From: a bacterium
GTDB taxonomy: Bacteria > Bdellovibrionota_G > JALEGL01
NCBI GenBank assembly: GCA_022763185.1
Contig: JALEGL010000014.1
Location: 186,001-250,000, forward strand
Reading direction: 5' to 3'
DNA: 64,000 nt
The notes beneath the pieces are model-generated. The model had not been told where the DNA came from. It made no database searches and saw nothing but the letters and a program-made list of their open reading frames with translations. Below, one piece after another: positions 49,126-50,794 of the stretch (position 1 is the stretch's first letter; the number at the start of each line of letters is the position of its first letter). A program made the position numbers and the translations under genes.

Positions 49126-49192
49126 ATTGTTATCAGCTAATAAAAAGACTGTAGGAATATAAATTTAAGGAAATTTTACGCACATGAATAAA

Positions 49193-49224
49193 GCCTAAAA
49201 AAGACGGTTCAATCTTTTTTAGGC
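49193..49224. terminator. Perfect 12-bp inverted repeat, probable bidirectional terminator
   Basis: GCCTAAAAAAGA (49193-49204) and TCTTTTTTAGGC (49213-49224) are exact inverse complements with an 8-nt loop. Between two convergent genes, this is where a shared terminator is expected: A6 upstream and T6 downstream would serve both strands. But the T-run is inside the stem and the distal stem end is GC-rich, so the shape is not a textbook terminator. Confidence 0.5.
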
Positions 49225-49278
49225 CAGGTATCGAGATGCAATGAAGCTTGTCTTACAACTCTGTTAATACAAGATTAT

Positions 49279-50343
49279 CTATTGTTGTAAAACAACTTTA
49301 AAGTTTTTTGATTGATTGCCTTTTTGTAAAACTATAAAAAAGACTCCGTTGTTTTGTTGATAAGAACCAAGATTATACTCTTCTTTTATTTCATCAGATC
49401 CTTCTGCATGTAATAAACGTTTCCCTTCTTGCGTATAAATAGAAATAGAATCATAGGCTGAAGCATAATTTATTTTGATGAGGTCAGCAGTGGGGTTGGG
49501 GTATACAAAAAAACTATCTAAATAAATAGCATCAAATCCAATAGCAACAGTTTTTGAGTGAGAAAAAGTTTCCCCATCCACATCAACTTGTTTTAAACGG
49601 TATAAATTTGATCCCTGTGTAGGGAAAGGATCAATAAATGTATAGTTGATAGGCTGAGAACTGTTACCATTAGCAGCTTTAGAATCAATAAAGGCTATAT
49701 CTTTGTAAGTTCTATCTACTGATGAAAACTTTTGCACGTAAAAACCGGAATTATTGATTTCTGTTATTGTTTCCCAACTGAGTAAAACATGCTGGTCATT
49801 GTTTGTCAGTTGTGCAGTAAACTCGCCTAATTCAATAGGGAGAGGGGTATTTGGAGCACCACAGCTGGCATTAAGGTTTTCTACCCATTCATTTGTTCCA
49901 TTGTTGTTGGTGTATTGCAGGCTTAGCAAAGGATTTGTGCTTTCATTACCGGCATTGTATGACGCTACTTCACTGCTGTCAGTTTCTGAAATTTCACCAT
50001 TGATAGACACCCAACAATCTTCACTATTAGAACACATTAAAATATCTACAAAAACAGGATCATTCAACCAAAAGCCATAATTTAAGTCGTTGGTTCCTTG
50101 AATACTAATAGACAGGGTATCATTGGCCGCAATGTTATAATTTGTTTGATCCGTGGTGCACGTTGGACAGACTTGACCTGTAGAGTTATAGGTAATCACT
50201 TTAAAATTCCATGCTTGGCTATCTAAGTTTAGTACCTCTAAGCAAACGCTGTTGCCTTGATGATTAATTTCTACAATTTTTAAATTTTGCGCCCATAGGA
50301 TACCAGTGAACAATAGTGTAAAGGATAAAAATATTTTTTTCAT
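49279..50343 (-). CDS. Secreted protein with type IX secretion (Por) C-terminal sorting domain
   Basis: 354 residues. Sec signal (MKKIFLSFTLLFTGILWA), an N-terminal domain with four or more Cys (TGQVCPTC, CSNSEDC), a fibronectin-like segment (LPIELGEFTAQL, VLLSWETITEINNSGFYVQK, YRLKQVDVDGE) and a C-terminal sorting domain of the type A sort: FFVYPNPTADLIKI, SISIYTQEGKRLL and YNLGSYQQNNGVFFIVLQ. This whole arrangement is characteristic of Bacteroidota. The start was moved from a TTG to the ATG at the signal peptide. It lies in a photolyase cluster and its closest partners (PorU, PorV) are not seen. Gene transfer is the likely origin. Confidence 0.85.
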   Translation of the reverse strand: MKKIFLSFTLLFTGILWAQNLKIVEINHQGNSVCLEVLNLDSQAWNFKVITYNSTGQVCPTCTTDQTNYNIAANDTLSISIQGTNDLNYGFWLNDPVFVDILMCSNSEDCWVSINGEISETDSSEVASYNAGNESTNPLLSLQYTNNNGTNEWVENLNASCGAPNTPLPIELGEFTAQLTNNDQHVLLSWETITEINNSGFYVQKFSSVDRTYKDIAFIDSKAANGNSSQPINYTFIDPFPTQGSNLYRLKQVDVDGETFSHSKTVAIGFDAIYLDSFFVYPNPTADLIKINYASAYDSISIYTQEGKRLLHAEGSDEIKEEYNLGSYQQNNGVFFIVLQKGNQSKNFKVVLQQ

Positions 50344-50365: not shown

Positions 50366-50794
50366 TCAAGCAAAGTCAATAAATGATAAAATCAATACAA
50401 TAGATTTTAATGTCCATAAAAAAGTTCTGATCCAATTGCCCCTGACCAGTGAATGAATTATGTCACGATCAAAATGCTCAGCCAATCGTCCATGCAAGGG
50501 GATTTGAAATATTGCTGTTGATAACCAAATCCCAATGAGCATGACAAGATTCAATAAAAAAAAATGGTATTGAATAAAAAGCCACATTGCAGAAAAAACT
50601 TCAATCAGCATGATTGGACCTACAACAAAACTGGTTAACCACTGATGTTTTTTGGCATAGTGTGGAAAGCAGCTTGGTTCAATCAATGCAAAAAGAGGGT
50701 AGTGAACAACTTGGACAAACCAAATGAGACCTGTCATAAAAAGCGAACAAAAAAGTTGAATATAAAAAAGTTCTGTTAAGGTGAGGTTAAGCAT
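50366..50794 (-). CDS. Hypothetical four-helix membrane protein
   Basis: 142 residues, four hydrophobic helices. Motif-like features: WFVQVVHYPLFALI, HQWLTSFVVGPIMLIEVFSA and IFQIPLHGRLAEHFD. No charged active site. Proteins of this kind are commonly found next to photolyase genes, which suggests a connection to light or oxidative stress but not a function. Strong ribosome binding site (AAGGAG, 8 nt spacing) inside the end of phr; overlaps phr by 8 nt. Likely co-transcribed with phr and htpX. Confidence 0.8.
   Translation of the reverse strand: MLNLTLTELFYIQLFCSLFMTGLIWFVQVVHYPLFALIEPSCFPHYAKKHQWLTSFVVGPIMLIEVFSAMWLFIQYHFFLLNLVMLIGIWLSTAIFQIPLHGRLAEHFDRDIIHSLVRGNWIRTFLWTLKSIVLILSFIDFA

Follow-up and report, generated by a model that had tools for sequence, protein, structure and literature searches.

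A likely orphan type IX secretion cargo gene of the Bacteroidota kind in a genome from outside the Bacteroidota

How does a gene whose product resembles cargo of the Bacteroidota type IX secretion system (T9SS) come to stand in the genome of a bacterium from another phylum, and does that genome hold the machinery that could read the signal at its C-terminus? Two answers had been put forward from the nucleotide sequence and its open reading frames (hereafter the sequence-only reading): either the gene was acquired from Bacteroidota, or the organism itself carries a type IX system. The window, i.e. the whole stretch of DNA analysed, measures 64,000 nucleotides and corresponds to C14:186001-250000 of a host genome (G000) of 2.25 Mb, which is distributed over 15 contigs, is 97% complete and has an estimated contamination of 0%. 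The collection used contains only five genomes of the host phylum (the host and G001 to G004), so that the host is not one of the Bacteroidota.

The features of the gene and of its surroundings are collected in Table 1. A 366-aa frame opening on a TTG start is less likely, since it overlaps the upstream gene. The lack of a Shine-Dalgarno motif in front of the cargo gene is uninformative as a signal, because only about one quarter of the host genes show such a motif at their first ATG. As for the terminator-like stem-loop, one was found in the 2 kb scanned, where one is expected by chance. Concerning marks of mobile elements, no tRNA was found in the 64,000-nt window, and only short, chance-like repeats were seen at the gene.

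Table 1. Positions, in window coordinates, of the cargo-like gene, the parts of its product and the neighbouring features
Feature	Position	Strand	Description
T9SS type A cargo-like CDS	49279..50343	(-)	354 aa; ATG start at 50343, TAG stop at 49279-49281; from the ORF list
Predicted Sec signal peptide	50290..50343	(-)	residues 1-18, MKKIFLSFTLLFTGILWA followed by Q; own heuristic and inspection by eye
N-terminal region, no family match	49864..50289	(-)	residues 19-160; beta-rich prediction of very low confidence
Fibronectin-like module	49528..49863	(-)	residues 161-272; homology and structure model
Type A Por (T9SS) C-terminal sorting domain	49285..49506	(-)	residues 280-353; full-length TIGR04183 match
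Terminator-like stem-loop with T tail	49192..49225	(-)	54 bases past the cargo stop codon
Upstream membrane-protein gene	50366..50794	(-)	stop 22 bases before the cargo ATG; native to the lineage by its G003 homologue

In the cargo-like protein, the heuristic predictor places the cleavage site after residue 18, between Ala and Gln. Glutamine after the signal peptide was considered as a mark of Bacteroidota and is not diagnostic, given that the host itself has Gln in 57 of its 192 predicted cases. With this predictor, applied to the host only, no residue follows predicted signal peptidase I sites more often than Gln, which makes up 4.7% of residues overall; in a phylum that is not Bacteroidota, this bias goes some way towards the Bacteroidetes Q-rule. 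Residues 19-160 gave no Pfam, NCBIfam or local phmmer match, and their pLDDT is about 30 in the full-length model, a poor one made without an alignment; a binding or structural role for this region is a plain guess. The module that follows was modelled with fair to high confidence (pLDDT 77-93 over most of its length).

The C-terminus had been read as a type A Por sorting domain, and the curated family models bear this out at the same coordinates and on the same strand: TIGR04183 scores 30.6 bits against a cut-off of 23, with the model covered over its full length (1-72), and PF18962 scores 28.8 bits against a cut-off of 27. The domain lies at the extreme end of the 354-residue protein, which is the only one in the 2.25 Mb host genome to match TIGR04183 at E <= 1e-3. 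The hallmarks of such tails are kept (YPNP, xxGxxL, NGVFF and a C-terminal K-V-V-L), and the P-N-P, the two G and the K are invariant in an alignment with four Bacteroidota-type tails. By sequence, the best solved relative is chain 8glj_D, the Por sorting domain of a cargo (phmmer, E 0.0015). The tail was modelled as beta strands with a pLDDT of 47-79, and Foldseek, with a low-confidence model as query, aligned it to 8gl8_D with a probability of 1.00, a TM-score of 0.54 of the target and an E-value of 0.038.

The fibronectin-like segment in front of the tail had been described as being of the usual Bacteroidota type. Its 'LPIELGEF...WETITEINN' stretch is also present in a Chitinophagaceae protein (L022) and in L023, from another T9SS-bearing genome, WETITEINN being identical, and by sequence comparison this likeness is well beyond chance. 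The module is 44-48% identical to that of L022, and the closest named genome relative of the protein is from Chitinophagaceae (44% over residues 168-291). Its plasmid-borne relatives are from Bacteroidota only (Hymenobacter, Aureispira, Flammeovirga and Bernardetia). Two weak matches lie in unannotated records of uncultured phages, and among viral contigs none of 65 pattern matches is a relative. In the module tree, the host protein falls within a group of 13 rows (support 96/94), the other rows of which belong to named Bacteroidota or to genomes with a SprA match; within this group it stands beside Chitinophagaceae, although the support for this pair is weak (87/42). Rooted at the midpoint and built on a short module, the tree supports kinship to Bacteroidota-type cargo and leaves the donor unfixed. 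Outside this group falls a distant fibronectin-like module, 22% identical, which the same-order genome G001 bears on a C25 peptidase devoid of Por tail. The Bacteroidota affinity of the segment is upheld by its relatives and by the tree, but given this distant version such a module does not by itself point to Bacteroidota.

The other answer, that the organism carries a type IX system, is disfavoured by the search for its components. Neither SprA (TIGR04189) nor PorV (NF033710) was matched in the host and its phylum relatives G001 to G004, and PorU (NF033707) was not matched in the host, whereas in the three T9SS control genomes (G011, G048 and G058) SprA and PorU score over their cut-offs and PorV matches strongly. 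Profiles of SprA, PorU and PorV were also built from these three controls and run one by one over the host stretches, which cover the genome except for 72 kb reading N (G000:C6:168001-240000). The home-made SprA and PorU profiles found nothing in these stretches, and the matches of the PorV profile are FadL porins; the one PorV-like host protein scanned scores 129 bits with PF03349 and 50.7 bits with the PorV/PorQ family, whose cut-off is 90. The GldL model TIGR03513 gave one match below cut-off in the host, but it matched none of the T9SS control genomes. Because of the 72 kb of C6 that read N, the absence of SprA, PorV and PorU is strong but not complete. In the host phylum, G001 and G004 match the PorU model below cut-off only, through C25 peptidase domains. 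These gingipain-family peptidases (L161:3-6062 in G001 and L163:4222-7521 in G004) have C-termini made of a Cys, a hydrophobic stretch and an Arg.

When the host stretches were searched with a profile of tails, a second cargo protein, of 533 aa, came to light on another contig (G000:C3:85656-87257, i.e. L075:5656-7257). Its tail is of type B, with 41.7 bits for TIGR04131 (cut-off 35) and 53.4 bits for the CHU_C family PF13585 (cut-off 27), and its plasmid relatives are all from Bacteroidota. The codon usage of this gene is ordinary for the host. Lipoprotein-like genes flank it; cytochrome oxidase genes lie to one side and dxs to the other, and inspection of the adjoining ORFs brought no PorP/SprF-like gene to notice. 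The host thus bears tails of both types without a detectable translocon, and the type B cargo on C3 shows that the type A case is not a single accident of assembly. Two cargo genes, with two tail types and no detectable translocon, are what is new here and the least expected part of the case.

Foreign codon usage does not serve as proof of transfer, since in its codons the cargo gene is closer to the host than most of the host's own genes are: of the 868 host genes of 250-500 aa, 96% have a greater codon distance to the genome mean. When the gene was compared with seven small sets from other genomes, the host again gave the better fit, G011 coming nearest at 0.027 bits per codon behind. The codon comparison that the sequence-only reading had proposed thus reveals no contrast, the usage being entirely native. 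This makes contamination unlikely and implies that the transfer is old or that the donor was of similar composition; without a foreign sign in the codons, the case for transfer rests on homology alone. The gene is located in the middle of its contig, 235 kb into the 367 kb of C14, with flanking genes about 25 and 155 bases away. The upstream membrane-protein gene has a 41% identical homologue in the same-order genome G003, where it is followed by another gene and not by the cargo.

The survey took in 385 genomes from many groups, with SprA matched in 150 and TIGR04183 in 162 (E <= 1e-3). A Por tail without SprA match was found in 23 of the 235 SprA-negative genomes, an upper figure since some bins are incomplete and some matches weak. 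One of these 23, G066, consists of a single contig with an estimated completeness of 100% and has one strong tail (E 3e-9). Conversely, 11 survey genomes have a SprA match but no type A tail. Closer to the host, three proteins of G003 (L048, L049 and L050) match TIGR04183 weakly, with 27.4, 25.3 and 22.8 bits, respectively.

As a whole, the cargo gene is most likely an acquired orphan, i.e. a T9SS type A cargo gene obtained by horizontal transfer of a Bacteroidota-type secreted-protein gene; the family matches, the nearest relatives and the module tree all support the acquisition from Bacteroidota that had been suggested. Against it count the codons devoid of foreign sign, the N-reading 72 kb that could hide machinery, the GldL model that matched no control, the three weak tails of G003 and the weak sister pair in the tree. 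A working type IX system, divergent or partly hidden, that would read the tails of both types is very unlikely. Even though two sorting-domain types with conserved hallmark residues are found in one genome, 72 kb are masked and the GldL model for the motor matched no control, the curated SprA, PorV and PorU profiles were empty in the host and positive in the three T9SS genomes, SprA and PorV were also unmatched in the four relatives, and SprA-positive survey genomes usually have many tails (commonly at least 14), whereas the host has one of type A. It is highly improbable that both tails are read by a translocon that has escaped recognition and has no sequence kinship with SprA, in which case Por tails in SprA-less genomes would be live signals for a second export route. 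Secretion by another host route, such as type II, with the tail as a bystander or re-used as an anchor, is unlikely: the C25 peptidases of G001 and G004 end like MYXO-CTERM proteins, so that surface proteins of the phylum may use other routes, but the cargo-like protein shows no direct sign of a type II signal, and a simple pattern scan of the host gave no convincing MYXO-CTERM-like protein.

Vertical inheritance is distinctly unlikely too. According to this explanation, Por-tail-like beta-sandwiches would be old, machine-independent end domains of the order, and the three weak matches in G003, itself without SprA, PorV or PorU match, do make it possible that such tails have long occurred in the order in a looser form; the native codon usage and the distant fibronectin-like module of G001 are also in line with it. 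On the other hand, the G003 proteins differ in architecture (two are, by eye, beta-helix-like repeat proteins), two of the three fall below the TIGR04183 cut-off when scored whole, no tail was found in G001, G002 and G004, and the module tree groups the cargo with Bacteroidota cargo and not with G001. As for a binning or assembly artefact, in which the contig took in a fragment from the genome of a co-occurring Bacteroidota member, the 15 contigs of the assembly and the Bacteroidota relatives of the gene could suggest it. It is extremely unlikely in view of the mid-contig position, the close flanking genes, the lineage-native upstream neighbour, the codon usage and the second cargo, which lies in a host context on another contig, so that the suspicion of contamination raised for 49.1-50.4 kb, in a genome with none estimated, receives little support.

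For an acquired orphan, the transferred gene would have taken on, or already had, the host codon usage. Its product would be exported by Sec with removal of the signal peptide, and would then stay in the periplasm with its tail uncut, or leave only by vesicles or lysis. Such a periplasmic fate is to be expected because, in Porphyromonas, cargo with a damaged tail accumulates in the periplasm (PMC11285876). The Por tail may serve merely as a stable immunoglobulin-like end domain, since there would be neither a translocon to recognise it nor a PorU to remove it.

Automatic annotation labels any protein with a Por tail as T9SS cargo. Both tail types in a host without detected translocon, together with the 23 of 235 survey genomes, indicate that the tail alone is no proof of a T9SS and that cargo genes can travel without their machine. 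Should it be true that tails are read in such hosts, this would point to an unknown export route. Since similar orphans occur elsewhere, the present case is to be seen as a curiosity rather than as a new system.

Among known systems, the closest counterparts are the T9SS type A cargo proteins (TIGR04183/PF18962), for instance the Chitinophagaceae protein on JAGOUF010000084.1, with which the host protein shares an Ala-Gln end of the signal peptide, the WETITEINN module and the C-terminal type A tail; it differs from Bacteroidota cargo in that its host has no SprA, PorV or PorU match, and hence no known reader of the tail. The C3 protein resembles T9SS type B cargo by passing the cut-offs of both TIGR04131 and PF13585, and is a separate gene, on another contig and outside the window. 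The C25 peptidases of G001 and G004 belong to the same phylum, and that of G001 has the distantly similar module, but they carry a MYXO-CTERM-like end in place of the Por tail. Finally, in Poribacteria, TIGR04183 tails were reported in 2014 while no Por structural genes were found (PMC3909097); Poribacteria have many tails, mostly on repeat proteins such as WD40, whereas the present host has a single cargo of each type, A and B.
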